Translations under genes and position numbers: made by a program
DNA from: Corbicula japonica
Lineage: Eukaryota; Mollusca; Bivalvia; Venerida; Cyrenidae
Assembly: GCA_038501625.1 (NCBI GenBank)
Contig: JAZAYU010000052.1
Span: 3,935,955-3,999,954 of the forward strand
DNA: 64,000 bases
Reading direction: 5' to 3'
In this document: one piece after another, positions 10,424 to 61,545 of the stretch
How the letters are laid out: each line of letters opens with the position of its first letter
How positions within the stretch are numbered: the stretch's first letter is position 1
The notes under the pieces: generated by a model
Told to the model about the DNA's origin: nothing
What the model saw: only the letters and a program-made list of their open reading frames with translations
The model's database searches: none

Positions 10424-10923
10424 NNNNNNNNNNNNNNNNNNNNNNNNNNNNNNNNNNNNNNNNNNNNNNNNNNNNNNNNNNNNNNNNNNNNNNNNNNNNN
10501 NNNNNNNNNNNNNNNNNNNNNNNNNNNNNNNNNNNNNNNNNNNNNNNNNNNNNNNNNNNNNNNNNNNNNNNNNNNNNNNNNNNNNNNNNNNNNNNNNNNN
10601 NNNNNNNNNNNNNNNNNNNNNNNNNNNNNNNNNNNNNNNNNNNNNNNNNNNNNNNNNNNNNNNNNNNNNNNNNNNNNNNNNNNNNNNNNNNNNNNNNNNN
10701 NNNNNNNNNNNNNNNNNNNNNNNNNNNNNNNNNNNNNNNNNNNNNNNNNNNNNNNNNNNNNNNNNNNNNNNNNNNNNNNNNNNNNNNNNNNNNNNNNNNN
10801 NNNNNNNNNNNNNNNNNNNNNNNNNNNNNNNNNNNNNNNNNNNNNNNNNNNNNNNNNNNNNNNNNNNNNNNNNNNNNNNNNNNNNNNNNNNNNNNNNNNN
10901 NNNNNNNNNNNNNNNNNNNNNNN
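10424..10923. other. Assembly gap, 500 N
   Basis: A run of exactly 500 undetermined bases, a conventional scaffold-join length rather than a measured gap. The base before it is the last base of the left duplicate. The base after it starts unrelated sequence. Open reading frames across it are meaningless. Confidence 1.
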
Positions 10924-15383: not shown

Positions 15384-16139
15384 ATGGGTTGCTGTGGATC
15401 AAAAGCAGACAAATCGAAAAGTTACCTTCTCCAAACATTGTCAGGCCATGAAGCAGGCGTCAATTGTATGGCTCTGAGCGAAGATGGAAGTGTGCTAGCA
15501 ACCGGAAGTGAAGATAAAACTGCGCGTCTTTGGAGCGCAAAAACGACACCATGTGAATGTATAGGGATATTACGCGGGCATGAAGAATACGTAAACTGTA
15601 TTCTTATCGAGGATTGCTTTTGTATTACCGGAAGTGCGGACAAGACAGTCAGGAAGTGGGATGTAAGCACCTGCGAATGCGTACTCATTATGCGCGGGCA
15701 CACATCAGTTATTTATAGAATGATTTGTACCGGAGATTTTATATTCACGAGTTCGTATGATAGAACGGCGAGATGTTGGGACTTTGATAACGGAGAGTGT
15801 ATCCGAGTGTTTAGGGGTCATAAAAGAGGGGTCTATCCCTTAATATTCATACCAGGGGATGATGAAGGCAACGACGACATTGACAATTATGACGGGTCTA
15901 GAGATATTCTGCTGACTGGTTCGGCAGATTTTACTGCCAGATCCTGGAACTTTGAGACGGGACAGTGCCTTAAAGTATTTAAGGGTCATACAGGGGCGAT
16001 AACTTGCATGGCCGCTGATTCTATGGGCAGAGTACTCTTTACAGGAAGTACTGATAACAGCATTCGTTCTTGGAATCTGATAAAAGGGGAACAACTCAAG
16101 TTATTTTCTGGCCACCAAGGATCTGTTATTTGCATACAG
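15384..16139 (+). CDS. WDR86: WDR86-like WD40-repeat protein, exon 1 (N-terminus and WD repeats 1 to 6a)
   Basis: 252 codons, phase 0 at the end (ata cag, then gtgaga donor at 16140). Starts MGCCGSKADKSK: Gly2 followed by Cys3-Cys4 is a typical N-myristoylation plus palmitoylation signal, so membrane anchoring is likely. WD repeats follow, each with a GH dipeptide and an S/T-x-D...W core: GHEAGV/TGSEDKTARLW, GHEEYV/TGSADKTVRKW, GHTSVI/TSSYDRTARCW, GHKRGV/TGSADFTARSW and GHTGAI/TGSTDNSIRSW, then GHQGSV opens repeat 6. Repeat 4 has an acidic loop (DDEGNDDIDNYD). Repeat order, spacing and many residues match my recollection of vertebrate WDR86 (about 376 residues). Family function is poorly known; WD propellers are binding scaffolds. 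The spliced product from exons 1, 2, one of 3/4, 5 and 6 is 398 residues. Confidence 0.92.
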
Positions 16140-17394: not shown

Positions 17395-18790
17395 CTGACG
17401 GTGGCAGGCCGATTTTCGGTTGATATATAAATCATACCTTATGGTCTTGATTTCACATAGTTGTAAAAGTTGTAACATCACAATATGCGGTCGAAGGTCA
17501 GTGTTAATAAGGGAAAGGGCAATGTATTAATATTGCTTCCATTTTCTTTACATGCAAAAATGACCCACATTCAGAATCTCATTAAAACTGTCGTCACAAA
17601 TCACTAAATGGCACTTGCCTGCCACCGCGCGAACAAAATGTACCCGCCCTGCCACCTGCCGATTTGCAAAAATAGAAAAAATCGCCACGACGTCAGAAAT
17701 TTAACTTTTTCTTAAAATCTCAGCTGCTTGCTGGCGACGTCTAAAATGCCGACTGCCGCCGGACGATCGTAACTGCCGCAGTCTTGCCACCGGCCGATAT
17801 TTAGTGAAAATTGACATTTACAACGTCGGCCGGTGGCATTTAGTGATTTGTGACGAAAGTTTTAGACCTGAAATAATCATTAAAGGGGCGTCTCCGGTTT
17901 TCCTTATCCTGCCACAAAAAAGGAATGTCACGTCCTAATATGCAATAATTTAGTAAGAAAACAAAAAACATAACGTTTCATTTTTAAATATGTACGGCAT
18001 TTTTAAACTGTCGTCACAAATCACTAAAGTGACAGGCGGGGCGCAGGGCGATTTTTCCTCCGCGATCGAGACCTCAAGAGTCCACAGAAATCGACCGGTG
18101 ATTGCTAGAAACTAACTGCCACTCTCCAGCACCCGGCCTGCCACCGACATGCCACCGCCCGATTTCACTTTATCGGCCGGTGGCAGAGCGGAGGCTGGGA
18201 GGCGGCAGTCAATGTCGGTAGGTGGCATCTGCCGATTTCAGACTAACAGACATTAGTTCATAATGAATTGACTATTACCATACATAACAGTTCATATGGC
18301 GTTTTAAATTGCACCAGATCGACTAAGAGACTTAAGAATAGCCCTTTCCCTTATTAACATTGACCTTCGACCGCATATTGTGATGTTACAACTTTTACCA
18401 CTATGAGAAATCAAGACCACAAGGTATGATTTATATATCAACCGAAAATCGGCCTGCCACCGTCAGATTATCGGGCGGGCGCAGATCGGTGGCAGCTAGA
18501 TCGCTCAATCGCCGGCCGGCGGCAGTTGTAAATGGGCTGTCCCCCGCCAGGTGGCAGGGCGGTGGCAGTTTAATTCTAGTTGCCGCCGCCCTGCCACCTT
18601 ACTGCCACTTGCAGGATATTTTGGGGAGTCACGTTTCCCGCGAGCCTTTGAAACCAACTGCCACCGACAGGCGGCATTTTGTTGGCAGTTATATGTGACT
18701 GCTCTCAGCGATGTGTAAACAATCGACCGGCGGCAGCCAACTTCACGACTCTGCCGATGTCAAAATTGGCCGGCGGCATTTAGCAATTGT
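17395..18790. mobile_element. GC-rich foldback-like element with subterminal motif clusters
   Basis: Arms of about 126 bp at 17395-17520 and 18341-18466 are inverted copies of each other, both including the words accgaaaatcggcctgccac and cgcatattgtgatgttacaa in one orientation. Between and beyond them lie dozens of GC-rich motifs (TGCCACCG, GCCGGCGGCAG) in both directions. The word tcacaaatcactaaa occurs at about 17594 and 18012, and inverted near 17838. It lies in intron 1 of the WDR86-like gene. Motif clusters plus inverted arms suggest a non-autonomous DNA transposon or foldback; I cannot name the superfamily. Confidence 0.6.
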
Positions 18791-18858
18791 GACGCTAATT
18801 TAGCTAGGTTATACCACCGTGTCGGTGTTTAGACCCTATTTCTCTATGATATGAGATA

Positions 18859-18991
18859 AAGGTTATAAAATTTAGATTGGAAACCAGTCTCAATTCTCAA
18901 GCATCTGATTGGCTGAAATGGCGTCTAGTCGCCATTTCAGCCAATCAGATGCTTGAGATTTGAGGCTGGTCTCCGTGATTGACTTTTAAAG
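18859..18991. mobile_element. Palindromic MITE in intron 1
   Basis: Right-duplicate counterpart of 1257-1389; sequence identical as far as I could see. Being inside an intron, it would fold into a hairpin of about 60 bp in the pre-mRNA. Confidence 0.85.
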
Positions 18992-21525
18992 CCGAAAGTA
19001 GACGTGAAGAAACTTCTTCTCGAGTTTATGCAGTTTTTTTCTTTAAGTGCAAGTTTCACCTCTAAAATTCACAAATCTTGTGATTGTATGTTGAGTACTG
19101 TTCACAATATAAGTAAAATACTATTCAGATTAGGGATTGTAATAATATGGTCTAAGATTTGCTCATACTTAAATAAATAGACTTTCTTAGACACACTTCT
19201 ATCAACAGTTTGATAACATATACCTCTCTAAATGACTTTACAAAATTCATGGAATGTGAGGATTTAAGATAAGTTTTTTTAAGTTTTGATTAACCCTTTC
19301 CTCCATATATACGCATTTTTATGCATGTGCGAACCCTCCCAAAAGTTTTAAATTTGCCTTTGGCGTTCTCTGCGGTCGGCAGGACATGCAGTATTTGTAT
19401 TTCAGATCCCTTGTCAAAATTCTATTTTATTCAGCTCCGTCGATTGTTTCTCGTTTAGGACAAACCCATTATTTTATATGGGGACATTACGCCGCTGAAC
19501 ATTAAATGGTATTAATCTGAATTTACCGCATAAAAGGTTTCATGTTTACCGTCATATACATACCATCGTTTTGGATGGATCTAAGTTGTGCTGTTTACAA
19601 CGTTCTTGTGTACATGTAAATAATGAGTTGCGCACAACTAGGCGGCGTGGGCAGTAAAATTATTACCATTACTGTCAGTGAACAGGATTAATCAAACTGA
19701 GCCTGCAATAGTTTATTTTTGTCGGGTTTGGTTACTTGCAAAGTTTCCTTTTCTTCTATCCCAAGTATCATGTCTGAAACCCCTTAAATAAAAGTAAAAA
19801 TATGATTTAACTTTGTAAGAATTACTTATTCTAAAGTTAACCCTGGTAGGTCTGCAGGTTTTACTTTCACTGTTGATATATTAACCTATATATTCCTGCA
19901 TGAAGTTTTACAATATATTGATTATGTTAGAGGCCGACAAGTTTAATATCGAATCAAATATTCTTTGTAATCTTAACAAAACGATTGACTTCAAATATTT
20001 TGAATTTGCACTCGGCAATAATCAGGTGACCGCTATGATCTACTGATCTATCGAATTTCTAATTGTTAAAATTCATAATTTATAGATTCTCTGGAAACCA
20101 GATACAAACGTTCAGATTCATCGATTTAATATAAGGTCATTAATATCAAACAAAGGGAATATTGTCGTCTGCGGAATAATAGAATAAAAATGCGCTTTAG
20201 GTCAGATTGCGTTATTTCGATTAATCGGTTACGGTTCAGTTTAGGTGTGGTTCTAAGTCCTTTCTTGAATTATTTAGCAAAACATCAAAAGGGCAACGGA
20301 TACATGTTACTTTGTAGATCAGTCAAAAGAAATTAATCGTTCATTGAATACAGAACAACAATTTTATCAGAAACAAAACAGGCAAAACTATTAAAATTTA
20401 GCTTGTTACAGTACCTACTTAGAACCTAGCTGATTTATTGGCCAAACTGGCGTTCTTCCCCTTTTACCGGGTAATACTAGTAACACACAATTTAAATTAT
20501 GTTCATTTCAAACAAAAACCACCTGTTTTCGTAAGAATACAACTTTTTTACAAACTGTCATCGAGAATAATGAAAAATATCGACATTTCTTCAACGGCAA
20601 ACTGCAGTTAATATAAATTTGCAAAAATCAATGTCATACGACGGTTGCTGTAGTTTCCGCTTTTACAACGCTGTATATGATAGTGTATATGAAGATGTTT
20701 CTATAGAAAATAGAATCCGAAATGAATGCAGCAAGTGCATTCTATTTTCTTTTTTTTATGTCGCCCTTCATTTGTAGTCAATCAGAAGCTATGAAAATTC
20801 AAATTCCTCGCCGATTTATTACAATAGAACTACTTTCTATTTTCTATTTTACAATGAACAAAATAGATCAATCTATTTTCAAATGCACATGTGCATGGCT
20901 ACAAATGTATGGCGAAATTTAAGTCGGATAGATTCTATAAAGACGTTTCAATAGAAATAGAAGCCTGCACTCGTTGCTCTCGTTTCGGCTTCTATTTTCT
21001 ATAGAAACGTCTTAATAGACGCTCTCCTATACTTAACGTGCTCATCTCATTATAAATTTGCAAACTCGGTCGATGACTGAAAAACGAAAGTCTCTGCGTT
21101 TGTCAACTGATTACAAGGTTAACATTTCTTTGAAAAAAAAAACAACATTTCGACAAAGATATTAACTATGCAAACGGTGCAGACCTAAAATTTATAATGC
21201 TGTTAAATCGGAAACTAACGCCTTTATTTTTTATAAGTAAAGAAAAGTAAGAACATCAAAGAAAATAGCTAGACCTCAAAATTTCTTAAAATTATATTTA
21301 CATCCAAACACAAAAAAGCAAAACAACATTAGACACCATTTTAAATGCCCACACGTGTATTATGATACTGTACAAAATTATGCTGTAAACTTCGAGAAAC
21401 TGCAGTCTTCTTTACGCCCAAAATCTTTTCTCTCGAAAAATAGTTACCCATCCGAAATTTGCACGCAGCTTAACAATTTCCAGCTTAGAGATATAAATTT
21501 CTGACATTTGCTTTCTGCTTTTCAG

Positions 21526-21661
21526 GTTATCAACAAAATATTGTATTCCGGAAGCTCCGATCATACCGGAAGAGCATGGGTGACTGAATTCGGGGACTGC
21601 ACTCGGATTTACAAAGGCCATAAGCACACCGTGAGTGTGATCAAAATGAAGGACGGGCTTG
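21526..21661 (+). CDS. WDR86: WDR86-like exon 2 (WD repeats 6b and 7a)
   Basis: 136 bp: 45 codons plus one base (G), so it ends in phase 1. Flanked by ttttcag and gtaagt. Encodes VINKILYSGSSDHTGRAW, the C-terminal part of repeat 6, then TEFGDCTRIYKGHKHTVSV, the start of repeat 7, ending KMKDGL plus a split codon. Its first residues continue smoothly from exon 1 (GSVICIQ). The next exon must start with two bases completing the split codon, and both 104-bp exons at 35218 and 35937 do so. A second copy is at 3923-4058. Confidence 0.92.
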
Positions 21662-24600
21662 GTAAGTTGGATTTGTTATCCGGTATCATTGCCATATATT
21701 CGATATTTAGAAAGTTGTTATCAAGTAAATGTCATTTACAAATATTCGGGTTCTATAACAAATACCACAAGCTGTTTTGAGTTATTAAAACCGACGGGAA
21801 AACATAAACACATGAAAACAAATACTGTGGTATCATTTAACTCCGCTGGAACGAATTTTCGAGCAGAATAATCAAATTGCATTTTCGCGTGGACGAAATT
21901 CGCACAGTTGTATGCTTTTATGAGACACGCTTTAAAATTGTTAACTTCAGCTAGGATTTTTATTCACACTATTTCTCTTTGAGAAATACTCGAAAATTTA
22001 ATATGCGCGAAATTAAATAATACCACAGTAATAGCCATAATAAGACAAAATGATATAAAACAATAAAACTGCAAAAACAAACCTCGAAGTTAAAACGTGA
22101 AAAAACACAGACATTTCTAAATAAAAACAAAATTAAATTCTAAAATAAATAAGACATAACAACAATACATGTTTGACATATTTTATATCACTTACAGTCA
22201 GCTATAATGAGGCACGCCACGGGAAAAGTTACCTTCGGCAGTTCACGTCAATCCTTGAAACGACGTCATAAAGTTGAGCAGAAGACATTAATTATTATGC
22301 AATTCGCGGTAAAAATACCATTTTATTGTCAAAATGTGTAACAAAATCACTATTTTTGTTATGAGAAAAATAATAGAAATTTGAAAGTTCTTTCTAAATA
22401 TAGTAACAACAAAAATGACACAAAAAAATGACCGAAGGTACCTTTTCCCGTGGCGTGCCTCAAATGTAACTATTCAGTGCACATAAGCTTAACAAACGAA
22501 GTATTCCGAAGCTAGACAGGATCAGTCTAGAGGTTGCTGAAAAAAATCAAAATGAAAAAAAGTACTCCGCTACTTGAAAAATTAGTTCGGAAACAAAAAA
22601 ATATTTAAAAATGGTGAACAGGGTTTGCTTTGTTCGGTTGAAAAATCTGGACCCCAAATTTTCAAATCCAAACTTGCAAACATAAAAAATGCTGACCAAG
22701 TCGACTTATCTGATTCAATGTTGTTGGGACTTGTTTAATATTGCTTATGATTATGTTGTTATTATTTATACAAGAATCGTGACACGACTAATTTTCTTTA
22801 AGCATAAACTCGAATTGCCCACTTTAATGCTGTTGCTTATGCAAGAATCCCCAATTTAACCTGTGCAAACCAGTCATGCAGGTACTCAAACGACATTCGA
22901 AGTTGAAATTTCGATGGCTAAGTGCAAAAATGGACTATATTCTTATACATCTTAAGAGTTGAAGGTTATAAAGCTGAGATTGGAAACCAGTCTCAAATCT
23001 CAAGCATCTGATTGGCTGAAATGGCGACTGAGATTTGAGACTGGTTTCCATACTCAGTTTTATAACCTTGTTCATAGGACTTAGACCATTATTGCAACAA
23101 CACTTTTATTTGACTTGCTAATTAGTTCCCGGTGCTTTTCTAGAAGAATACCTTTAAAAATGTATTGGGATCGAAATAGCATTATAGTAGAGCAGCTAAT
23201 GAAAAAGTACTTCAATGTATGATAAACGCGTGACATGATTCTCGTGTGTTTTAAATGGCATTATATGTGATTTTCGACATTCGTAAAAAACCCTTCTTGC
23301 GGTTGAAGGGGTTTACCGAAGATGTCACCATATCCTGATTAGTTTGCATTAGGTCGAAACATTGATTGTGTTCGTGCTGTTTATTACAATGAGGGCAAAT
23401 TAGATATAAGTCAATTTTATTGATTTTCAAACAGAAAAAGTGTAATTATTACTTTTAAACAAATCTGCCAGGGAAAAGAACATACAGTTTATAAAACAAT
23501 AAACATTTAAATAAAATAAAGCATCTAAAAACAAGAAAAGATCAAATGGAAAAACAAATATTGTACATTTGTCTTACATGACATTTAGAACATTTTATTC
23601 GCGATAAATTCTGCAAAGAAAACACTAGCATAACTTCACTATATCTAAAGTCCACAATCACCATGAATATATTAAAAGTACAAGTTTTAGCTTTCCAAAA
23701 AGCTAGTCGGTCAGTAGCTCAACCTTTTAACAAGACGGCAGAAAAGTTTAAATTTTAAGCCACTTTTATGGGATGCCATACAAAAATGTAAGTTTACTTA
23801 TAGGTATTTCCTCTTTCGAGTGAGATGTATTTAACCTGGTGATAAATCTAACCCTGTTTGCGAACAAGTTACCGGTAATAATTTCTCTGGAAGTAAACCA
23901 AAATGGAAAAGTTTGTCAAACAATATTTTTGTGTCAGAAAGTGTTAGAAAGCAACGGTTATCAAGCTGTAAATATATATCAAAAGCTACAGAATATGTTA
24001 AAAAACAAAGTTTTTTCACAGTCATAGGGTGGGAGAGAAAATCGTGAACAGTCTGTCAGGGACTCACAGGTATGATAAAATTGTTCTTTCTGATCTAGAA
24101 CAATATTGTTAGAATGTTGGTATTCACTTAGTATGTCTCATGACTTCGAATAACAACCTAACACATTGATTTCAAAAGTATGCACTACAGCGCCGTCTTT
24201 GTTAAAAAGTAATGCTAATGACCGACTAGCTTTTTGGAAAGCAAAAGTTTGTATTGTCTATTATTGACAGTTGCATGACCCGATTTGATACTTCTGCAGA
24301 AGTATGTGTGTTCGCATGTTCCAAAGATTATTTTGTTGATTCAAAACCAAATTACAACTAAGTAAAGCTTAAACTTGTAGTGTCTACTATTTTCAGTTTC
24401 ATTACCCGATTTAAGATTTCTGCAAAACTGTGTGTTCTGGTGTTCCAAAGATAATTTTTACATTCAAAAACAGTTAAGGAAAATTATCAAGAAAGTACCG
24501 ACGGATGTATCCATATCAAGCTAGCTAAACCTTGTAAAACATTCCCTTGGATACCTCTGATCCCCGAGTTTCACAAAATGCTGCACAAGTTCGTAGATTC

Positions 24601-25032
24601 GTTGTCAGCAAAATAAGTAGCTAATCTCTGTTCAGTGTTTTCTACACATTTTATTTGCTTTGATTTAATAAATTTATAAGCTGTGCATCTTTTGTTTATC
24701 ATAAACAGTGTACATTTACTAGACAAAATCCATGTACATGTATATGTTTATTGTTCGTTGTCGGAAATATCTTTGTGAGTAATAAGCCGAGCTGATAAGA
24801 AGCTGGAGATAGGATTTAAGAATAGGTACAGACACCAAATGTGACGTTCTTCAACAGCCAATAAGAGGTCTCTAGGTTTTTATAGATAACGACTGAGTAA
24901 GAGTCTATCCATAAATAACGACTGAGTAAGAGTCTAATTATCTAAATTATCCGTTCCGTCTGGAACGTGATCTTTCCTTTAAATCACTGTTAACCGGTGT
25001 TCAGGTAGAAAGCTCAAGTTTGGTCGATTATA

Positions 25033-26482
25033 GGTTGAACCAAGGTAAATCCAATTTTCATAGACCTTAATGTTAAATTCCCAATATTCAATGCACATTT
25101 AACATGATTTCTATCATCTTAATTTCTAGACAACCATATATGACTGTGAAGATCTACATTTCATCTATTGAAAAACACACAGCAAATGGGGGGTTAACTT
25201 ACTTGTAAGAAAATTACTGATCTCTAACCGAACAGACCCTATTTTAAACGCGGTATCGCAAATACGGTGCCAAATATATACATCCGCTCTTCCGGAACTA
25301 GTGCGCCTCTACCAAACGAGATATAGGCATGAAATTGCTTTCATTTATTTTCCTGACATGTTATTCCTGCAAACAAGTCACAACCAGGTCGATTTCTAAC
25401 GGATAAGAGGCCCCCAGATGAAGAGAAAAAAATAGCATATAATGAAACGGACTTCATTCGAATGGACCACGGAGGAATACTGAGTTATTTACCTTAATAC
25501 AACCTATAAGAAAAACTTGAGTTTCCAAATGTAATGATTATGATATTATTTCATTGTGTTGTGTATTTGTAATATACTGTAGAAATTTCAACTTGATATC
25601 TGCTCTAAAACTCGACTTATAAGGGTTCAATGAGGCCCGCCCATATATGAAAAATTCGTCAAAATTTCCAGTATATTTCTGTAAAATTGCTTAATTTCAG
25701 ACAATTTTTTCAATTTTTATATTAAAAGCAACTATTTTTAATAGAAGAAACTTGTTGAGTCTGATTTTCAACACAAACACGTGCTAATGCTATCTTTTGT
25801 ATGAAGACGGGATCCCTCAGGCAACTCAATTGTGTAAAAGTTAATACCGAATAGGGTCCGGTGCCCAAAATTAAGATTTTTTTCAATTCAAAAACAAGAT
25901 TTTTGACAAATAGTATTTTAAAACCTAAAACCCAATCAAACTTAGCCGATTTCAATCACCGAAATCAAGTTTTGTCGACTTCGACATTTCCGAGGTTTTG
26001 AATCTTATAGGTTGAACCAAGGTAAATCCAATTCCCATAGACCTCAATGTTAAATTCCCAATATTCAATGCACATTTAACATGATTTCTATCATCTTAAT
26101 TTCTAGACAACCATATATGACTGTGAAGATCTACATTTCATCTATTGAAAAACACACAGCAAATGGCGGGTTAACTTACTTGTAAGAAAATTACTGATCT
26201 CTAACCGAACAGACCCTATTTTAAACGCGGTATCGCAAATACGGTGCCAAATATATACATCCGCTCTTCCGGAACTAGTGCGCCTCTACCAAACGAGATA
26301 TAGGCATGAAATTGCTTTCATTTATTTTCCTGACATGTTATTCCTGCAAACAAGTCACAACCAGGTCGATTTCTAACGGATAAGAGGCCCCCAGATGAAG
26401 AGAAAAACATAGCATATAATGAAACGGACTTCATTCGAAATGGACCACGGAGGAATACTGAGTTATTTACCTTAATACAACC
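25033..26482. mobile_element. Pair of ~473-bp TIR elements in direct orientation (right copy)
   Basis: Elements at 25033-25504 and 26010-26482, both bounded by GGTTG...CAACC with AT-rich flanking duplications, separated by about 505 bp. The spacer contains no recognisable gene; the 77-codon antisense frame at 25722-25955 has no features. It could be a composite element or two insertions. Confidence 0.7.
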
Positions 26483-26710
26483 TTATAATATGTCGGTCAG
26501 GATGACCGACAAAAAGCCGCCGTTCTTGCTGAGTAACAAATCTTGATTTTCAATGGATGTATGACAAGTATATAGTATATTACTGGAATGCAAATTGTTC
26601 GCAACATGCGATTCAAGTCAGTGGGGTTATCAATTCCTTCCGTGTGTTCAAACTCATTTCAAAATTTAAAATTGAAGTTGATTTTATTCTGATTTTGTTG
26701 ATACAATGTA

Positions 26711-27252
26711 CAGGGGGTCCAACGTATTTGGTTTTTTTCGGAAAAGTAAGTGAGGGACATGTTCTCTGCGGAACAAAATGGCGGAAAATTGTGTGTTTTG
26801 GTGCATTTCAGGAGATATTTTGACCTGGTAAGTAGTTTTATATCAATGTTATCGTAATATAAATACGCCTACCCGGAGGCCAGATGTGTAAGCTCCACTC
26901 GGTTTTTTAACTTATGTTTCTAGAGGCCTAAACAAAAAAGTTATTGAATGTATAAACTGAAAGATTGTTTGTTTACAAAGTGAAAATAGAAAATTGTGTG
27001 ACTTAAAACTGTGTTTTTAGTCAAAATATACCGTTCTTGGACCTATTTTAGCGAAATATATTTTTGCATATATTTCTTCACGGCGGCTTTTGCACTTTAC
27101 ATGGGTACTTTATGGCCATTTTTTTTATGTTCAAGCACCTTTAATGTTTGGCGTGGAAGTGGTAAGCATGTTTTTGTTCGGTGCAGAATCTGAATATCAC
27201 ACTCATACGCGTTAATATAAGTGAAAGTAAGACACCAGCTGACAAATGTTAA
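26711..27252 (+). repeat. 540-bp dispersed repeat, + copy of an inverted pair in intron 2
   Basis: Same family as 29889-30442, which is its reverse complement 2.6 kb downstream. The two could pair over several hundred bases in the intron 2 transcript. Landmarks: cagggggtccaacgtatttg, aaatggcggaaaattgtgtg, cacggcggcttttgcacttt, gttcggtgcagaatctg. Confidence 0.85.
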
Positions 27253-28924
27253 TCAAAGTACTGAAAGTACAGAAAACCAGCGAAGCGATTTTTCTTCTTG
27301 AGAATAACCAGTGCCATGATTCTCATACATGTATCCATTTACGAAAAAGCAAAAGAACTTGTTTCACTCGCAAAGACCTTCATCTTGTCTATATGATAGT
27401 GAAAATAAGGGTTTCCATGTATTATCTGGATGAAGGTTTCTGTTAACCCTTTACTCCATAGATATACCTTCATAGCTTGGGCGAACAGTTCAGATCCATA
27501 TCAGCTGGCACATCTTTGCGATCTGATTTGGATTTAAAATGTTCGCTTTGAGAATCATTAATTTTTTCCAACCAGTAATCACAAATTTTAGATCCAGATC
27601 AGATGGCACTATTGTGCCAGCTGACTGGGACCTGAACTTTTCACCTATGTGATGAAAGGCGTATATATTGAGTAAAGGGTTTTAAGCAAGAAATTATAAT
27701 AGTGAAATCTGTGTACTGACTACTGACATCCCAAAGACAGAATGAACACGAAAAATGATATAAAAAGTGAGACCCGATCGATGGGAATGATTATGCATTT
27801 ATTTGAAATAAGAAGTATATAATCGTTTCCTTCATTGTGAATAACATGTAAAGGAAATCATAGAATTGAGAATCCGACAAGATAAAACAACCGAGAGTCA
27901 TAACATTGCCGAAAGCATTGGAATTTAATGCTAGATAACACATATGTAAAATTGAAGACAATTTCAGAGGAAAATGAATTACTATAGCTTATACCATAAA
28001 TTTCCACCGTATTAAGTTGTAATATCCGGTATATTAGTTTTAATATGTAAAATTTTACACATCTCAATAGTTTATTGTTTACTGTTCACGCTTATAAGTG
28101 GAAATCCAATATATAAAAATTTTCAGCAATGATGATTGCTTCATGTTCAGTGATTTACAACAATCATGAACGCCTATCATCAAATAATGAACAAATGTTC
28201 GCAATATATCTTGAAAATGTCAAATGAAAGCATTTGCGCATTTATTTCATAAAGTGGACAATTGAAGAAAATATGCTAAGATGGAAATTTATCATTATCG
28301 TTATTGTTAATGATAAAAATAAAAAAAACGTGAAACACAGTTTAGCAGCGGAACAAACGTCCAATATTGAAATGGTTTTAAAATGACAAAATAAAGAAAA
28401 TGTTGTCACTGTTATTTTGAGCTTCGAGTTAGCAGAAAAAGATATATATTTAATATTTCAGAATTAATATTAAGCTATTGTAATATCCTAACTTCGGGAA
28501 TATCGTTTATATCTCTACCTGAAGGTAACACATCTGTGGCTCGCTAAAGAATCCCTGGCGGCTACAACCCCTACATAAAATTGCTTTTCTGTTGTCGATT
28601 GTGTTCTGAATTAGGTACAGCGCAGTGAAGCAGTCAAGTATTCTTTTAGCGATACTAACGTGGCACGAGCCAACTTTAACACGTAACAGGAAACTTGGAC
28701 TACTTTGTTAGCTCTGATTACTCTGAAATGCGTAAATCGCCGGTTGCCAGTGCCTCGTTTTGGTTTGATACCGATTTCAGAACTGTGATTAGTAAAACCA
28801 GCTTCGCTGGTTAAAAATCAAACAAAAAGCCAATATTTACCCAAACACACGGATGTTCCTTTATATCTTCGCCCGAAAAATGGCTTTACCGAAAAAAGAA
28901 CTTCATATGTATTTATAATATCAA

Positions 28925-31260: not shown

Positions 31261-32096
31261 ATGGTGGCTGATTTATGCCATTTCGTTATTCGTTATTTCG
31301 CCGCGAAATAACGCCAAGCGAAAAGACGAAATAACGAAAAAACGCCACGCGAAATAACGAAAAGACGCCACGCGAAAAGACGAAATAACGAAAAAACGCC
31401 ACTCGAAAATACGAAATAACGAAAAAACGCAAAGCGAAATAACGAAAAGACGCCACGCGAAAAGACGAAATAACGAAAAAACGCCACTCGAAAATACGAA
31501 ATAACGAAAAAACGCAAAGCGAAAATACGAAATAACGAAAAAACGCAAAGCGAAATAACGAAAAGACGCCACGCGAAAAGACGAAATTACGAAAAAACGC
31601 CACGCGAAAATACGAAATAACGAAAAAACGCGACGCGAAATAACGAAAAGACGCCACGCGAAAAGACGAAATAACGAAAAAACGCCACGCGAAAATACGA
31701 AATAACGAAAAAACGCCGAGCGAAATAACGAAAAGACACCACGCGAAAAGACGAAATAACGAAAAAACGCCACGCGAAAATACGAAATAACGAAAAAACG
31801 CCACGCGAAACAACGAAAAAACACCAGGCGAAATAACGAAATAACGCCGAGCGAAAAGACGCCAAGCGAAATAACGAAAAGACGCCAAGCGAAATAACGA
31901 AAAAACGCCAGGCGAAGCTAGAAAGAACGCTATTTTGTACAGTTAAATTGGCGTTTTATTGCACGGCGACTTTTCGTTATTTCGCGCAAAAATAGCGTTT
32001 TTTCGTTTTTTCGCGGGGCGTTCTTTCGTTATTTCGTCTTTTCGCGAGGCGTTTTTTCGTTATTTCGTCTTTTCGCGTGGCGAAATCAGCCACCAT
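31261..32096. mobile_element. hAT-like non-autonomous element filled with a cgaaataacgaaaa minisatellite
   Basis: Terminal inverted repeats atggtggctgattt / aaatcagccaccat, flanked by 8-bp near-identical sites tagttaat (31253-31260) and aagttaat (32097-32104). The left three quarters is an array of about 23- and 31-bp units (cgaaataacgaaaagacg, cgaaaatacgaaataacg with ccacg) forming an ~85-bp higher-order period. After a short spacer near 31920-31960 the same units run in the opposite orientation. Long open frames on the minus strand (31273-31888, reading as repeated FRYF/VFSLFR blocks) are by-products of stop-free repeat units. An 8-bp target duplication is typical of hAT elements. Confidence 0.75.
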
Positions 32097-34750: not shown

Positions 34751-34825
34751 CTCAGGTCAATATGATTTTGGAGATTGTGCAATCACCTTAAAGATATACG
34801 CGTACTTCCTGCTTTTTTTAGTCGT

Positions 34826-35183
34826 TGCCTTTGACGTTCTTTGTGATATGCAGAATTTATATTCTCAGATCCCCTGAAAAATTATTTTTATGTCCAGTTC
34901 CGCCCATTGTATTTTCGTTTAGTGCAAACCTATTCTTTTATCTAGGACCATACGCCGCTGAACATGGAATATTATTTATCTCAAATTCCTTTTTACAGGT
35001 TCCATATGCACACCGTCCTTGGATCTAAACTGTTTTACGGGTGTAAATATTAGTTGCGCTAAACCAGGACATAGTTAGCATGGACAGAAATTTCCATTGC
35101 CATTACTGGCCAAGAACAGGCTCAATTAAACCGAGCCTGCAATATTTTCATATTTGTCTTGCTCTTCAAAGTTCCCGTTTCAT
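34826..35183. repeat. Dispersed repeat D abutting the exon 3 acceptor region
   Basis: Matches the copies at 1752-2170 and 13843-14630 (gttgcctttgacgttctttg, catacgccgctgaacatgga, gagcctgcaatattttcata). Recognisable similarity fades about 35 bases before exon 3, so part of the region upstream of the branch point may be transposon-derived. Confidence 0.65.
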
Positions 35184-35217
35184 GTGTTTTCACTAACTAT
35201 AAATTTGTCGTCTGCAG

Positions 35218-35321
35218 TGTTAACAGGATGTGGTGATGCCATAGCCCGACTCTACGCGGGAAAGTCCGGGACATTAGCTCGAGAGTTCAAAGGTCACGAA
35301 GGAGCAATCAACGCTTTACAG
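35218..35321 (+). CDS. WDR86: WDR86-like exon 3, candidate mutually exclusive exon A (WD 7b/8a)
   Basis: 104 bp, acceptor tcgtctgcag, donor gttata (weak match to consensus). Needs the single G left by exon 2: G+TG gives Val, then LTGCGDAIARLYAGKSG and EFKGHEGAINALQ, ending in phase 0 with CAG. It is homologous to the next exon (20 of 35 residues identical) and exactly the same length. The WD core is weak here: LYAG replaces the usual W/Y-D. If joined to exon 4 instead of exon 5, the frame hits TAG at 35961-35963 after eight codons. I infer alternative use, not joint use; a decaying duplicate is possible but the exon is fully open. Confidence 0.85.
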
Positions 35322-35936
35322 GTTATAAGAAGTAGTCGCATAACCAAAAAGCCTTGCACCCACCCATCATTAGCGTTCCCATAGTTATCGGAGCCTTACG
35401 TCAGTGTGACGTAGTTCTGACGTAGGCCTAACATTACTTTCCATTTCTAACAAAACTCTGCACCTCTCCTTTGCATCTCTTAGATTTTTCTGTGTGCTAT
35501 TCTTTCTCAGAACTAGTATAGACTTCCTTGTTTTGAGAGACTTTTTAGTTCATTGAATTCATTTTCCGTTGTTTTTTATTATTTTAAATATTTAGAAAAA
35601 ACGTAGAATGAAGGTAAATAGCTAACTTATTTATAAATAATATAACTTTTCTCCTATATCATGTAGACAGTACCATCTCTTACAGCACCATCCTTCAGTG
35701 TGTAGCAGAAAATTTTCAGCTATAAAATTCTCTGTTTTCACTCCCAACTGAACAGCAGCCTCTAAGAGTTATCTACGCTTGTGGTGTTTGTTGTTTGGGC
35801 GACACTTGAGAAATATGGGGACACGTCGATTTTTTTACCCGTAGTAGTAGATACCTAATTAGATGATAACCTTATTTACTTTTTTCGTTTTCTTATCATT
35901 TTATTAACGTTTCGTTTTTCTATTTATTTTCCTCAG
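35322..35936 (+). other. 615-bp intron between the two alternative exons
   Basis: GT at 35322, AG at 35936. Acceptor tract of exon 4 is long and pyrimidine-rich (gtttttctatttattttcctcag, here in two overlapping parts). Too long for simple steric blocking between the two exons, so exclusion would need another mechanism such as RNA pairing, or decay of double-exon transcripts. No gene, no MITE recognised. Confidence 0.75.
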
Positions 35937-36040
35937 TTTTCACAGGGTCCGGGGACAGTATAGCACGATGCTATGACGCTAAATCTGGCGCCGTTAGAAG
36001 AACCTTTGCCGGACATAATGTTGCTATTACCTCCCTTCAG
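35937..36040 (+). CDS. WDR86: WDR86-like exon 4, candidate mutually exclusive exon B (WD 7b/8a)
   Basis: 104 bp, acceptor tttcctcag, donor cag|gtatca. With the G from exon 2 it reads VFTGSGDSIARCYDAKSG then RRTFAGHNVAITSLQ, ending in phase 0. It keeps a YD at the WD position and SGD...R...SG..RR.F.GH, closer than exon 3 to the single equivalent segment I recall in vertebrate WDR86. Exon B is therefore probably the ancestral type and A the diverged one. It can splice only from exon 2, not from exon 3, and then to exon 5. Confidence 0.87.
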
Positions 36041-37193
36041 GTATCACAGTAACCGCTGCTTCTCGGTCGATCTACGAAATTCCGAATGTTTATTGAAAAT
36101 TTAACCAGACAGGATACAAAAGTTAGCAATAAATATAGTTTATTTATCATGAAGACTATTAAGATATCGTTTCCTTTATATTTTTACAATTATATAAAGA
36201 AAATTTGAAATTTGCTGCTAAAATCGTCGCATTCGTGCAAACACAATATATCTGCTTTTTATTTCAATGGCACTTATACTGGTTTTGAACTAAAGTGACG
36301 AAATGTGCATAAAATCGTAGATTTTTAATTGGATAATCGTAGAACGGAAGAGATTTGCGGAGTGAAAAAAAAACTCGACCAAAAGCTGCAAAAGTGTGAG
36401 TTTTTACAGGAATTTGTTAGGGTGTAACTTAGTTATTTCTTTTTAATTCCTTAGTTTTACAATACCATTATGTTTATAATTACCATAGAAAAAGAAAGAA
36501 TCTTTATATGTAGAGCGTTCTTATGTTTCTTATAAAAACTTAAGTATACAATCTGACACTTTATTTTAACCAAATTCAATTAAACCAATATCTGTGTTCG
36601 TACTTTCAAAACTGTTTTAGAATGTTACAATAAATAGTGATTAATACAAGTATAGGCCATCAAGGTGGCAATAATTTTCATTCGAAACCATTTCGTTTTT
36701 AAGAAATGACACCCGAAGTCACATAATTCAATAATATCATCAGAAAACCGAAATAGTCTCTAATCCGAATTTTACCAGGCCCGGAGGTCAACAGTTTAAG
36801 GGTGTTGTTATTGTATTACATTGGCATTTTAAAAGAATATGTTTTAATATAATAAATATAATATTGACAAAAAGATTTGAATGGAATACTTAGTTTCTTA
36901 TTCATTTTGTTTTTGTAATGTCAATTTAAAATTTAAATGTTCAGATAATTGCATTACATGTAATGATTCGATTAATCATATGCATTACATGTAGTGATTC
37001 GATTAATCATATGCATTACATGTAGTGATTCGATTAATCATATGCATTACATGTAGTGATTCGATTAATCATATGCATTACATGTAGTGAGTGATTCGAT
37101 TAAATCATATGATGCGTTCAAGAAAATGAGATTTTTATGTATTGCCTTAGTCAGCTTAATTTTTCTGTAAATTTATGTTGATTATCATAACAG
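36041..37193 (+). other. Intron before exon 5, with a 31-bp tandem repeat
   Basis: 1153 bp, AT-rich. No third copy of the 104-bp exon is visible. The only structure is the tandem repeat at 36951-37110. The acceptor (gattatcataacag) is pyrimidine-poor. Confidence 0.75.
36951..37110. repeat. Five tandem copies of a 31-bp unit (gcattacatgtagtgattcg)
   Basis: Units of gcattacatgtagtgattcg plus attaatcatat. The inner three are identical; the first has gtaatg and the last has an extra gtga and an extra a. It lies 84 bases before exon 5. Confidence 0.92.
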
Positions 37194-37281
37194 GTAGTGG
37201 ATGGAAGGCTCTTCACCGGGTCTTACGATGGTGGAGTGAAAATTTGGGACATAACAGGAATCAACGATGACACAGCTTTCG
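37194..37281 (+). CDS. WDR86: WDR86-like exon 5 (completes WD repeat 8)
   Basis: 88 bp, begins in phase 0 (GTA GTG GAT) and ends after one base of a codon; donor gtaatt. Encodes VVDGRLFTGSYDGGVKIWD then ITGINDDTAFG: the last WD core (TGSYDGGVKIWD), matching the final repeat of WDR86 in position. If both 104-bp exons were skipped, reading would shift and stop at TGA within this exon after 25 codons. Confidence 0.92.
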
Positions 37282-38009
37282 GTAATTTATTTATTTATGT
37301 TTCTGAAAAGTTGCAACAATTATTTATCCTTGCAGGTGTAGTGCCGTGTGTCGGATGCATAAAGTGTAGTTTTCAGTTTTAATTACCACCCTTGATGATA
37401 ATATGCTAATTTCAAGCCATGCAGAATGTCAATCATTGTGGTTGGCAGTATATAGGTATACTTGATCTATTCTTTTTAGGGGACATGGACAGTATGTTTT
37501 GTTTTTGTCTCTTGCGTGGTTGGATAGGCACTGCCGCCGTATCTGTATGACCTTAGGGTTATCCATACATCTGCACAATTAATTAATTATCCTTGCAATA
37601 GACTTATTTATATAAAGTGGTACGATGTTACATTACTATGTCACTACATGTTTATATCTTCGAAGCGATGTGGCCCATTATTGCTTGATAAGCTGTAATG
37701 GGACCTTTTGAGGAATAACAAAGTTTGAGAATATGTTCTTAGTTTTTGACACTAGAGTAGAATTCTATAATGAATTTGAACAAACATTTACACTTAGAAC
37801 TCTGGAAAAATATGTTTGATGCCTCAGCAGCATTGTCGTTATTTTAGAAAATGACTTTCCACCTACCAGTATTTTGATATCGTTTAGCAAACGACGTTGT
37901 AAGTTGTGTAAGTTTTATTTAAAAGTCCTCATGTAGCTGAAAAAGGCAGAGTAAGGCAGAGTTACGTCAAACGGAATCATTGTCTTATGAAGAGACTTAT
38001 CTTTTTTAG
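37282..38009 (+). other. Last intron of the WDR86-like gene
   Basis: 728 bp, GT at 37282, AG at 38009 after a cttttttag tract. No repeats or other genes recognised. Confidence 0.8.
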
Positions 38010-38122
38010 GAAAAGAAGAAGAAAAGAAGAAAAATAAAGACGAAACGGCAAACATAGAAAAGATCAGTCAGATGGACCAGAATCAGAACGGAATCGGCAA
38101 AAACAAAATAATGATCGATTAA
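38010..38122 (+). CDS. WDR86: WDR86-like exon 6, charged C-terminus and stop
   Basis: Two bases complete a Gly codon split after exon 5, then KEEEKKKNKDETANIEK and ISQMDQNQNGIGKNKIMID, stop TAA at 38120-38122. A hydrophilic, Lys/Glu-rich tail after the propeller, not a WD repeat. The frame match across the 728-bp intron and the immediate stop support it as the terminal exon. I see no clear AATAAA within several hundred bases downstream, so the 3' end is not defined. Confidence 0.82.
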
Positions 38123-38557
38123 ACTGCATCCATCCATCGGTCCGCCAGCGATTCGCTATTCGATTTTCCACATTTCCTTGAAAACATGCCACTCGCTTCC
38201 ATTGTGTTAAAATCGCATCGAAAAGAAAGAATAGGAAATGTCTGATTTGTTTAACTGATTGAATTTTGAAGCACACTCGATCATTATAAGATCATCTGAA
38301 GAACCATTTAATTTTATTAATTTGGTGTGGCCGTGTGGTACATCCGACAGAACTTCGCAAAAGATTCGTAAAATAGAAGTTTAAAGTCTTCATACATGTT
38401 ACAAGATAAAAAACGTAAATCGATTTTGACACTGAATGTGAAAGCTAGCATATTTCGGATTCGATAACAGGAAAACATTTATTTTGTTTTATATATTCAC
38501 ACTTAAGTTTATTGTATTTCTTATCATAATCGTTACTTACATTGTGATTATTTTATT

Positions 38558-48167: not shown

Positions 48168-51100
48168 CCGTGAAGTACGCGGGGTAACGGGCTAGCGGTG
48201 TGGCGGGCTGGCAGTGTGAACTGGGCGGGCTAGCAGTCTAGCGGGCTAACAGTGTGAACTGAGCGGGCTAGCAGGCTAACGGGCTAACAGTGTGAAGTGG
48301 GCGGGCTAACAGTGTAGCGGGCTAGCGGAGTGAACTGGGCGGGCTGGCGGACCAGCGGGCTAAACTTAAACACTTCATTGAATCAACATGAAAACGTTAT
48401 GAAACATTTCCGTGAAGTACGCGGGATAACGGGCTAGCGGTGTGGCGGGCTGGCAGTGTGAACTGGGCGGGCTAGCAGTCTAGCGGGCTAACAGTGTGAA
48501 CTGAGCGGGCTAGCAGGCTAACGGGCTAACAGTGTGAAGCGGGCGGGTTAACAGTGTAGCGGGCTAGCGGAGTGAACTGGGCGGGCTGGCGGACCAGCGG
48601 GCTAAACTTAAACACTTCATTGAATCAACATGAAAACGTTATGAAACATTTCCCAGCAGTGTGAAGTGAGCGGGCTAACAGTGTAGCGGGCTAGCAGAGT
48701 GAACTGGGCGGGCTGGCGGGCCAGCGGGCTAAACTTAAACACTTCATTGAATCAACATGGAAACGTTATGAAACATTTCCCAGCAGTGTGAAATGGGCGG
48801 GCTAACAGTGCAGCGGGCTAGCAGAGTGAACTGGGCGAGCTGGCGGGCCAGCGGGCTAAACTTAAACACTTCATTAAATCAACATGAAAACGTTATGAAA
48901 CATTTCCCAGCAGTGTGAAGTGAGCGGGCTAACAGTGTAGCGGGCTAGCAGAGTGAACTGGGCGGGCTGGCGGGCCAGCGGGCTAAACTTAAACACTTCA
49001 TTGAATCAACATGGAAACGTTATGAAACATTTCCCAGCAGTGTGAAGTGGGCGGGCTAACAGTGCAGCGGGCTAGCAGAGTGAACTGGGCGGGCTGGCGG
49101 GCCAGCGGGCTAAACTTAAACACTTCATTAAATCAACATGAAAACGTTATGAAACATTTCCCAGCAATGTGAAGTGGGCGGGCTAACAGTGTAGCGGGCT
49201 AGCGGAGTGAACTGGGCGGGCTGGCGGACCAGCGGGCTAAACTTAAACACTTCATTGAATCAACATGAAAACGTTATGAAACATTTCCCAGCAGTGTGAA
49301 GTGGGCGGGCTAACAGTGTAGCGGGCTAGCAGAGTGAACTGGGCGGGCTGGCGGGCCAGCGGGCTAAACCTAAACACTTCATTGAATCAACATGAAAACG
49401 TTATGAAACATTTCCCAGCAGTGTGAAGTGGGCGGGCTAACAGTGTAGCGGGCTAGCGGAGTGAACTGGGCGGGCTGGCGGACCAGCGGGCTAAACTTAA
49501 ACATTTCATTGAATCAACATGAAAACGTTATGAAACATTTCCCAGCAGTGTGAAGTGAGCGGGCTAACAGTGTAGCGGGCTAGCAGAGTGAACTGGGCGG
49601 GCTGGCGGGCCAGCGGGCTAAACTAAAACACTTCATTGAATCAACATGGAAACGTTATGAAACATTTCCCAGCAGTGTGAAGTGGGCGGGCTAACAGTGC
49701 AGCGGGCTAGCAGAGTGAACTGGGCGGGCTGGCGGGCCAGCGGGCTAAACTTAAACACTTCATTGAATCAACATGGAAACGTTATGAAACATTTCCCAGC
49801 AGTGTGAAGTGGGCGGGCTAACAGTGTAGCGGGCTAGCGGAGTGAACTGGGCGGGCTGGCGGACCAGCGGGCTAAACTTAAACACTTCATTGAATCAACA
49901 TGAAAACGTTATGAAACCTTTCCCAGCAGTGTGAAGTGGGCGGGCTAACAGTGTAGCGGGCTAGCAGAGTGAACTGGGCGGGCTGGCGGGCCAGCGGGCT
50001 AAACCTAAACACTTCATTAAATCAACATGAAAACGTTATGAAACATTTCCCAGCAATGTGAAGTGGGCGGGCTAACAGTGTAGCGGGCTAGCGGAGTGAA
50101 CTGGGCGGGCTGGCGGACCAGCGGGCTAAACTTAAACACTTCATTGAATCAACATGAAAACGTTATGAAACATTTCCCAGCAGTGTGAAGTGGGCGGGCT
50201 AACAGTGTAGCGGGCTAGCAGAGTGAACTGGGCGGGCTGGCGGGCCAGCGGGCTAAACCTAAACACTTCATTAAATCAACATGAAAACGTTATGAAACAT
50301 TTCCCAGCAGTGTGAAGTGGGCGGGCTAACAGTGTAGCGGGCTAGCGGAGTGAACTGGGCGGGCTGGCGGACCAGCGGGCTAAACTTAAACACTTCATTG
50401 AATCAACATGAAAACGTTATGAAACATTTCCCAGCAGTGTGAAGTGAGCGGGCTAACAGTGTAGCGGGCTAGCAGAGTGAACTGGGCGGGCTGGCGGGCC
50501 AGCGGGCTAAACTTAAACACTTCATTGAATCAACATGGAAAAGTTATGAAACATTTCCCAGCAGTGTGAAGTGGGCGGGCTAACAGTGCAGCGGGCTAGC
50601 AGAGTGAACTGGGCGGGCTGGCGGGCCAGCGGGCTAAACTTAAACACTTCATTAAATCAACATGAAAACGTTATGAAACATTTCCCAGCAGTGTGAAGTG
50701 AGCGGGCTAACAGTGTAGCGGGCTAGCAGAGTGAACTGGGCGGGCTGGCGGGCCAGCGGGCTAAACTTAAACACTTCATTGAATCAACATGGAAACGTTA
50801 TGAAACATTTCCCAGCAGTGTGAAGTGGGCGGGCTAACAGTGCAGCGGGCTAGCAGAGTGAACTGGGCGGGCTGGCGGGCCAGCGGGCTAAACCTAAACA
50901 CTTCATTAAATCAACATGAAAACGTTATGAAACATTTCCCAGCAATGTGAAGTGGGCGGGCTAACAGTGTAGCGGGCTAGCGGAGTGAACTGGGCGGGCT
51001 GGCGGACCAGCGGGCTAAACTTAAACACTTCATTGAATCAACATGAAAACGTTATGAAACATTTCCCAGCAGTGTGAAGTGGGCGGGCTAACAGTGTAGC

Positions 51101-51470
51101 GGGCTAGCAGAGTGAACTGGGCGGGCTGGCGGGCCAGCGGGCTAAACCTAAACACTTCATTAAATCAACATGAAAACGTTATGAAACATTTCCCAGCAGT
51201 GTGAAGTGGGCGGGCTAACAGTGTAGCGGGCTAGCGGAGTGAACTGGGCGGGCTGGCGGACCAGCGGGCTTAACTTAAACACTTCATTGAATCAACATGA
51301 AAACGTTATGAAACATTTCCCAGCAGTGTGAAGTAAGCGGGCTAACAGTGTAGCGGGCTAGCAGAGTGAACTGGGCGGGCTGGCGGGCCAGCGGGCTAAA
51401 CTTTAACACTTCATTGAATCAACATGAAAACATGGGCGTGAAGTGGGTGGGCTTAAAGTGTAACGGCCTG
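48168..51470 (+). repeat. 127-bp satellite array with higher-order structure
   Basis: From the first cccagcag junction at 48652 to the last at 51319 there are 21 intervals totalling exactly 2667 bases (21 x 127). Each unit has a GC-rich half built on gcgggct words (gcgggctaacagtg, gcgggctggcgggccagc) and an AT-rich half (acttcattgaatcaacatga, aacgttatgaaacatttccc). The array starts with two 242-bp units that contain extra gcgggctagc blocks. Unit variants (gcggag/gaccagc versus gcagag/gggccagc) alternate, pointing to dimer-scale amplification. No open frame. Confidence 0.95.
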
Positions 51471-56189: not shown

Positions 56190-57315
56190 GAAGTTGGCAG
56201 TGAGTAATGAGTAGGGAATTGGATATTCAATATCCACCTGAAATTGAATCCACTGCCAGCTGTGAGTTGGGTATTCGCTTTACACAAACAGCTAATACCC
56301 TAATGAGATCGAATTCGCTGCCAGCTGTGAGTTGGGTATACCTTCTATACTGACAGCGAATACCCTAATGGGATCGAATCCACTGCCAGCTGTGAGTTGG
56401 GTATTCGTTCTATACTGACAGCGAATACCCTTATGGGACGAATCTACTGAGAGCTGTGAGTTGGGTATTCGTTCTACACTGACAGCGAATACCCAAATGA
56501 GATCGAATTCACTGCCAGCAGTGAGTTGGGTATTCGCTCTACACTGACAGCAAATACCCTAATGAGATCGAATCCACTGCCGGAAGTGAGTTGGGTATTC
56601 GCTTTACACTGACAGCGAATACCCTAATGAGATCGAATCCACTGCCAGCAGTGAGTTGGGTATTCGCACTCCACTGACAGCGAATACCCTAATGAGATCA
56701 AATCCACTGCCAGCAGTGAGTTGGGTAATCGTTCTACAGTGACAGCAAATACCCTAATGAGATGGAATCCACTGCCAGCTGTGAGTTAGGTATTCGTTCT
56801 ACACTCACAGCGATTACCCTAATGAGATCGAAATCACTGCCAGAAGTGAGTTTGGTATTCGCTCTACACTGACAGCGAATACCCTAATGAGATCGAATCC
56901 ACTGCCAGCAGTGAGTTGGGTACTCGCTTTACACACACAGCGAATACCCTTATGAGATCGGATCCACTGCCAGCAGTGAGTTGGGTATTCGCTTTACACA
57001 AACAGCGAATACCCTAATGAGATCGAATCCACTGCCAGCAGTGAGTTGGGTATTCGTTCTACATTGACAGCGAATACCCTAATGAGATCGAATCCACTGC
57101 CAGTGGTGAGTTGGGTATTCGTTCTACACTGACAGCGAATATCCTAATGAGATCGAATCCACTGCCAGCAGTGAGTTGGATATTCGCTCTACACTGACAC
57201 CGAATACCCTAATGAAATCGAATCCACTGCCAGCAGTTGTATGTGTCAGCGCTACAGTTGGGTATTCGCTTTACACAAACAGCGAATACGCTAATAAGAT
57301 TGAATCCACTGCCAG
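56190..57315 (+). repeat. 65-bp tandem array, each unit carrying a stem-loop
   Basis: About 17 units at a regular 65-bp spacing (anchors ctgccagc at 56251, 56316, 56381 and so on). Each unit contains gggtattcgct, about ten loop bases (ctacactgac), then agcgaataccc, an 11-bp perfect inverted repeat in most units. The linker is ctaatgagatcgaatccact plus gccagcagtgagtt. The penultimate unit has an insertion of about 15 bp. Not CRISPR: the spacers between repeats are themselves repeated. Confidence 0.93.
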
Positions 57316-60300: not shown

Positions 60301-61545
60301 TTTAAATTCTGGTTCCAACCATATTTAGATTGTTTTGCCAGCTTAGAAGACTGTACAGATCCGTGCCTCCGTAATTGCGATTATGTGCAGAATATGGATT
60401 TGTTCTATTGTTAAACGTTACGTCGTCCTATATCTCCGCCATTTTATGAACAGTTTTTATGTTTTATATACCATTTTAATCGCAAGAACGAGGTCTTAAA
60501 ATTTTTCTGCATGCTGGAAGAGATCGCACCAAAGCAATCCAGGTTAAAGCGAAAGCAGGAGGGCTTTAATCCGAGGTTTGTCTCGGTTTCTGATATATTC
60601 TTTCTTGAAAATAGGGACATATCGTAAAGATAAACATACATATTTTCGAAAGTTTAAATTCCGGTTCCAACCATGTATGGATTGTTTGGCTAGCTTAGAA
60701 GACTGTCCAGATCTGAGCCTCCGTCATTGAGATTATATGTAGAATATGGCATTTTTTCTATGGGTAAACATTACGTCGTCATAAATCTCCGCCATTTTTT
60801 GAACAGTTGTCATGTTTTATATACCATTTTACTCGCAATAAAGAAATCTGAAAATTATTCTACAGGACTGAAGAGACCGCACTAATTCAAACCAGGTTAA
60901 AGCGAAAGAAGTAGGGCTCGAATCCGAGGCTGGTCTAGGTTTCTGATATTTATTTAATGGAAAGAGTGACATATCTTAACGGTAAACATATATGTTTGTG
61001 AGGGTTTAAATTCTGGTTCCAACCATATATAGATTGTTTGGCCAGCTAAGAAGACTGTACAGATCCTTGCCTCCGTAATTGCGATTATGTGCAGAATATG
61101 GATTTGTTCTATTGTTAAACGTTACGTCGTCCTAAATCTCTGTCATTTTAAGAACAGTTTTTATGTTTTATATACCATTTTAATCGCAAGAACAAGGTCT
61201 TAAAATTTTTCTGCATGCTGGAAGAGATCGCACCAAAGCATTCCAGGTTAAAGCGAAAGAAGGAGGGTTTTAATCCGAGGTTTGTCTCGGTTTCTGGTAT
61301 CTTTTTTCCTTAAAATTTGAACATATCGTAAAGGTAAACATACATATTTTCGAAGGTTTAAATTCCGGTTCCAACCATGTATGGATTGTTTGGCCAGCTT
61401 TGAAGACTGTACAGATCCGAGCCTCCGTAATTGCGAGTATATGCAGAATATGGCATTCTTTGTATAAGTAAACATTACGTCGTCCTAAATCTCCGCCTGT
61501 TGATGAACAGTTTTCATGTTTTATATACCATTTTGACTGGGTCAA
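57320..61545 (+). repeat. ~352-bp tandem array with a 704-bp dimeric period, interrupted once
   Basis: The anchor aggttaaagcgaaag falls at 59837, 60190, 60541, 60894 and 61245: steps 353, 351, 353, 351, and exactly 704 between every second one. Odd and even monomers differ (caggagggttttaatccgag versus gtagggctcgaatccgaggc). Shared landmarks: agactgtacagatccgagcc, cctccgtaattgcgattat, acgtcgtcctaaatctccgc. The first unit begins at about 57320 and is split by the 57407-59441 insertion. Short minus-strand frames through the array are not genes. Confidence 0.92.
57407..59441. mobile_element. 2035-bp insertion flanked by TTAA (piggyBac-like, non-autonomous)
   Basis: Inverted ends agggagatgtgcagg and cctgcacatctccct lie between TTAA at 57403-57406 and TTAA at 59442-59445. 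Removing the insert and one TTAA gives gatcttaatattgttctgca, which aligns with the intact units' ggtcttaaaatttttctgca, so the empty site is visible in the neighbouring repeats. TTAA duplication is the hallmark of piggyBac elements. No transposase recognised; frames of 60-76 codons inside (57877-58107, 58942-59124) are unassigned. The agacgttcgtcagagc and cagaacgtctaga words near 59073-59120 are a local inverted pair. Confidence 0.72.

Follow-up and report, generated by a model that had tools for sequence, protein, structure and literature searches.

Results

The locus and its exons

The DNA analysed here, a window of 64,000 nucleotides from Corbicula japonica, holds on its plus strand a complete gene of the WDR86 type with six exons, which codes for 398 amino acids when one of the twin exons 3 and 4, but not the other, is used; on recomputing the frame this length was obtained with exon 3 alone and with exon 4 alone. 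The features of the gene, in window positions, are as follows.

15384-16139, plus strand: exon 1, 756 bp, open frame, aligned to homologues
21526-21661, plus strand: exon 2, 136 bp, enters in phase 0 and leaves one base
35218-35321, plus strand: exon 3 (alternative A), 104 bp, peptide VLTGCGDAIARLYAGKSGTLAREFKGHEGAINALQ
35322-35936, plus strand: intron separating the twin exons 3 and 4, 615 nt
35937-36040, plus strand: exon 4 (alternative B), 104 bp, peptide VFTGSGDSIARCYDAKSGAVRRTFAGHNVAITSLQ
35961-35963, plus strand: TAG, met when exons 3 and 4 are both included
37194-37281, plus strand: exon 5, 88 bp, enters in phase 0 and leaves one base, blade 8
37268-37270, plus strand: TGA, met when exons 3 and 4 are both skipped
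38010-38122, plus strand: exon 6, 113 bp, C-terminal tail ...DQNQNGIGKNKIMID, then TAA

Exon 1 carries the ATG and the N-terminus MGCCGSK, codes for blades 1-5, reaches into blade 6 and has the donor CAG/GTGAGA; exon 2 has a TTTTCAG acceptor and a GTAAGT donor. The splice signals of exon 3 are the acceptor CTGCAG, a branch-point-like CACTAAC and the donor GTTATA, and those of exon 4 are the acceptor TTTTCCTCAG, a branch-point-like TATTAAC and the donor GTATCA. Exon 6 was located by its likeness to the tail of the Potamilus protein, after which its frame and stop were checked. Rfam (at gathering cut-offs) and ARAGORN returned no matches in the window.

The assignment to WDR86, made in a first-pass annotation of this DNA, is upheld by similarity over the whole length to proteins that their sources call WD repeat-containing protein 86, and identity to seven lophotrochozoan homologues ranges from 66 to 81%. 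The N-terminus, MGCCGSK in the window and MGCGASK in unionid mussels, has a lipidation-like pattern that may mark a lipid anchor.

Positions 1-10423 are 99.67% identical to 17603-28020, and the first of these blocks ends exactly at a gap of 500 N (10424-10923); the window consequently has a second copy of exon 2, at 3923-4058, lying ahead of exon 1. The block is probably an assembly duplication, an unmerged second haplotype. A dispersed repeat at 34825-35181, which resembles 1752-2151 (duplicated at 19354-19753) at about 67%, ends 36 bp before exon 3, and a near-perfect 31-bp tandem repeat (36950-37090, 4.5 copies, 99% matches) lies about 100 bp upstream of exon 5, within the intron. Elsewhere, one 127-bp tandem repeat forms two satellite-like arrays, 48188-51431 and 62597-64000, which run in opposite directions and whose copies are 86-96% alike both inside each array and across the two, and further tandem arrays occupy 56239-57315 (unit 65 bp), 59442-61534 (unit 352 bp) and 31304-31916 (unit 31/85 bp).

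Frames of the twin exons

The first-pass annotation had described exons 3 and 4 as homologous exons that can be used only one at a time, and its account of lengths, phases and stops was reproduced in full on recomputation. Each exon is 104 bp long with AG/GT ends, each begins with the final two bases of a codon that the intron interrupts and ends in phase 0, and the two peptides are identical at 20 of 35 residues. Exon 2 leaves one base and exon 5 begins in phase 0 at 37194; the joins 2-3-5 and 2-4-5 are open, the join 2-3-4-5 meets TAG at 35961, by which in-frame joint inclusion is rejected, and the join 2-5 meets TGA at 37268, after 25 codons. The frame is thus broken by joint inclusion and by joint skipping alike, in a pair of neighbouring internal exons that resemble each other in sequence, length and frame, contain no in-frame stop and have GT-AG ends.

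Chance and repeat structure were both considered as sources of this likeness. Segments of the form AG-104-GT number 415 on both strands of the window, 63 of them open in the required frame, and the best match to exon 3 or 4 among the other 61 is 7/35, against 20/35 between the two exons themselves, which rules out chance frames as the source of the pair. The exons score 97 against each other with BLOSUM62, whereas either scores at most 66 (14 identities) against any other ungapped 35-mer of the protein, as is expected of a duplicated exon and not of two successive blades; that they are merely two neighbouring WD repeats is rejected on the same scores.

Constraint on both exons

Between exons 3 and 4 the first, second and third codon positions are identical at 24, 25 and 7 of 35, respectively, and the Nei-Gojobori method gives pS 0.93 and pN 0.31 (dN 0.40). 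Since synonymous sites are saturated and pN is only 0.31, both exons look to be under coding constraint. In a neutral simulation of 20000 copies, which started from exon 4 and had no indels, none retained 20/35 identity at 1 substitution per site and 0.4% retained identity and an open frame at 0.5 substitutions per site. At 0.25 substitutions per site 32% of the copies were still similar and open, so the argument for constraint hangs on the saturated synonymous sites.

Homologues and the two exon types in mussels

The protein searches yielded 66 matches, one match for the exon-3 segment alone and, in a further search, the best 120 of 997. We retained as homologues 74 of 164 proteins, those with at least 30 of the 35 positions covered and an alignment score of at least 500, and excluded the remainder. 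Clustering of the database at 90% means that isoforms from one species would collapse.

The single match to the exon-3 segment is a protein of Potamilus (P0001), a mussel of the same family, Unionidae, as Sinanodonta (P0017). These two proteins are identical at 317 of 328 positions outside the exon slot and at 18 of 35 inside it (Fisher p 9e-13), from which it appears that their models carry different exons. The Potamilus protein resembles exon 3, matching it at 25/35, including the last 14 residues REFKGHEGAINALQ, against 22/35 for exon 4; the Sinanodonta protein resembles exon 4 (19/35, against 14/35 for exon 3), these being protein models of two separate species. Quartet sites pair exon 3 with Potamilus and exon 4 with Sinanodonta by 3:0:0. 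The Asp of the WD motif falls at position 14, where 51 of the 74 homologues have D, 18 have E, 4 have N and 1 has A, and the one Ala besides that of exon 3 is in Potamilus. Exon 4 nonetheless matches Potamilus better than it does Sinanodonta, so the case for orthology depends on few sites, and the Sinanodonta model lacks exon 2 and is partly wrong; orthology of the window exons with the unionid exon types is, on these alignments, likely rather than proven. Among the protein models we found no unionid with both exon types, nor any named WDR86 model with both exons in the clustered database, which may hide isoforms of one species.

The slot has no length difference from 35 residues in 67 of the 73 proteins that span it. 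The six others are Nucella P0006 (+8), P0031 (+15), P0142 (+8), P0144 (+2), P0150 (+2) and P0068 (-3). The eight extra residues of the gastropod Nucella fall in a slot that reads CRVFDAKS and then ARCFDART, like two versions of one stretch, and may reflect two exon copies fused by the gene predictor; its parts favour neither exon 3 nor exon 4 (scores 48/51 and 70/74), so we treat it as a hint and leave it uncounted.

A 30-row tree of exon 1 places the window within a group of 21 rows whose named members are all molluscs (95/90); a fork of 16 rows holds the window and all four named bivalves (85/90, drawn open), and the window is sister to P0074 (97/87). Four scallop proteins (P0143, P0147, P0148 and P0151) are WDR86-like and strongly diverged, at 47-48% identity to the window isoform; the two of them included in the tree share a long branch (2.12), and the four probably represent a fast-evolving paralogue.

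Position of the swapped segment in the propeller

As a stand-in for the window isoforms we used an AlphaFold model of Potamilus P0001, made from an alignment of 39 and with a mean pLDDT of 87. It has 32 strands, which we interpret as eight four-stranded blades with the first strand closing the propeller, and its top six matches in the PDB are to Tako8, a designed eight-bladed protein, with TM-scores of 0.95-0.97 by target length; on this model the WDR86-type protein is an eight-bladed WD40 propeller. The swapped segment, residues 305-339, covers strands 7c and 7d completely, together with the greater part of 7b and five of the seven residues of 8a. The placing of the swap in the outer part of blade 7 and the first strand of blade 8, proposed in the first-pass annotation, therefore agrees with the eight-bladed Potamilus model. 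Ten of the 15 differences between exons 3 and 4 lie in strands (positions 2, 5, 12, 14, 20, 21, 23, 25, 32 and 33) and five in loops (positions 8, 15, 19, 28 and 29).

Splice sites and the choice between exons

Energies of pairing with U1 are -11.1, -9.1, -5.6, -7.2 and -5.3 kcal/mol for the donors of exons 1 to 5, and 10 of 17 bases upstream of exon 3 (a short tract) and 15 of 17 upstream of exon 4 are pyrimidines. Exon 4 has better splice sites than exon 3. The donor of the constitutive exon 5 is as weak as that of exon 3, so weak donors do not single out the twin exons.

Known routes to exclusive splicing were compared with the locus. Steric exclusion would call for a donor less than about 50 nt from the branch point, or for a branch point far from its acceptor and close to the preceding donor; the spacing of about 585 nt between the exon-3 donor and the likely exon-4 branch point argues against it, and the AG-free zone upstream of exon 4 measures 72 nt. 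Nor is there a sign of incompatibility of U2 and U12 sites, no U12-type donor RTATCCTT being present on the plus strand in 35000-38200. As for competing RNA pairing of the docking/selector kind, complementary stretches in the introns stay within the range of shuffled sequence: in this single species, with the last 1500 nt of intron 2 scanned, the longest stems are of 14-16 pairs with GU allowed, against 13-20 in 8 shuffles, and of 10-11 Watson-Crick pairs, against 9-13 in 20 shuffles.

The reading frame would then be the only safeguard that we see against joint use of the two exons. We infer that the splicing machinery selects one exon per message, the choice being made by competing splice sites together with trans-acting regulators and the frame acting as the safeguard. 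By the general rule of nonsense-mediated decay, which turns on the distance from stop to junction, messages with both exons should be degraded, since two junctions follow their stop, at distances of 77 and 165 nt. Double skipping would give a protein of 322 residues without most of blade 7 and blade 8; its stop is just 11 nt before the last junction, so this message would possibly be spared decay.

Discussion

We consider it highly probable that exons 3 and 4 go back to an old tandem duplication, in which a single exon of a WDR86-type gene was copied, and that they are spliced mutually exclusively, one per message. This reading is supported by an equal length that is not divisible by three, the same phases, a single slot in the protein, apparent constraint on both exons and the two matching peptide types met in two other bivalves. 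The first-pass annotation's proposal of an exon duplication whose copies are unusable together accordingly appears sound as far as sequence can tell, with the frames and stops, the constraint on both copies and the separate occurrence of both types in two unionid mussels all pointing to it.

The strongest competitor, which we nevertheless judge unlikely, is that one exon only is used and the other is a relic or very rarely spliced. It would fit exon 3, with its short pyrimidine tract (10/17), its weak donor (-5.6 kcal/mol) and the loss of the WD-motif Asp, but frames and splice sites are intact in both exons and nonsynonymous sites have been kept though synonymous sites are saturated. The consensus of the 74 homologues is matched by exon 3 at 24/35 and by exon 4 at 23/35, so neither is a degenerate copy; the Pfam WD40 profile gives the exon-3 isoform 181.4 bits against 178 for the exon-4 isoform, and each exon type occurs in a mussel gene model.

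The unionid proteins come without gene structure and their quartet support is three sites only, so they might be products of two gene copies rather than of alternative exons, the window pair being a separate local duplication. Identity at 317 of 328 positions outside the exon is hard to square with old copies that are half different inside it, and Ala14 is common to Potamilus and exon 3 only; we regard this account as very improbable. An artefact of assembly might be suspected in a window that has a probable false duplication beside an N gap, but the duplicated block does not reach exons 3 and 4, which share 55 of 104 bases, against 99.67% identity in the block, and we give this explanation almost no credence.

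With mutually exclusive splicing of a duplicated exon as the preferred reading, the gene can probably make two protein forms, distinguished by a portion of one blade and the first part of its neighbour, and the swap would retune one sector of the eight-bladed propeller, perhaps with the change of partner binding that the first-pass annotation proposed. More tentatively, and with somewhat less than even confidence, we can picture an ancient switch that predates the split from the unionids and perhaps goes back to early molluscs. In such a switch the exon-3 form would have given up the acidic WD-motif residue of blade 7, and a lipid-anchored WDR86 would exist in two regulated forms that dock different partners by tissue or stage. 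If evolution has preserved the exon swap, it would single out blade 7 strands b-d and the adjoining start of blade 8 as important to WDR86, and the two natural isoforms could be compared in the search for partners of this little-studied protein.

Among the matches listed, the literature on WDR86, on mutually exclusive exons (with WD40, propeller or tandem duplication) and on molluscs or bivalves held no report of the exon pair. The search for WDR86 with alternative splicing gave no paper with WDR86 in its title or abstract, that for 'WD repeat-containing protein 86' with isoform gave no matches, and a text search in a paper on human tandem exons (PMC9741552) found no WDR, WD40 or propeller passage. 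As far as this literature goes, the WDR86 pair would be a new case of a known phenomenon. In the WDR86 of other animals the order of the protein is the same, with one 35-residue segment in the slot in most of the 73 spanning proteins.

The human tandem-duplicated mutually exclusive exons are neighbouring homologous exons of equal length and frame (PMC5740500), and the window pair is like them in each of these respects; the human set was checked by splice-junction reads, whereas the window pair comes from genomic sequence. Few WD40 propellers seem to contain mutually exclusive exons, and the sole case found in the literature searched is coronin-1D (CORO6) of tetrapods, where exons 5a and 5b provide a precedent for alternative exons in a propeller (PMC3203266). 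That is a different, vertebrate protein, and its exon spans almost the whole fourth WD repeat, whereas the pair described here would, on the structural model, span blade 7 from strand b to strand d and then the greater part of strand a in blade 8.
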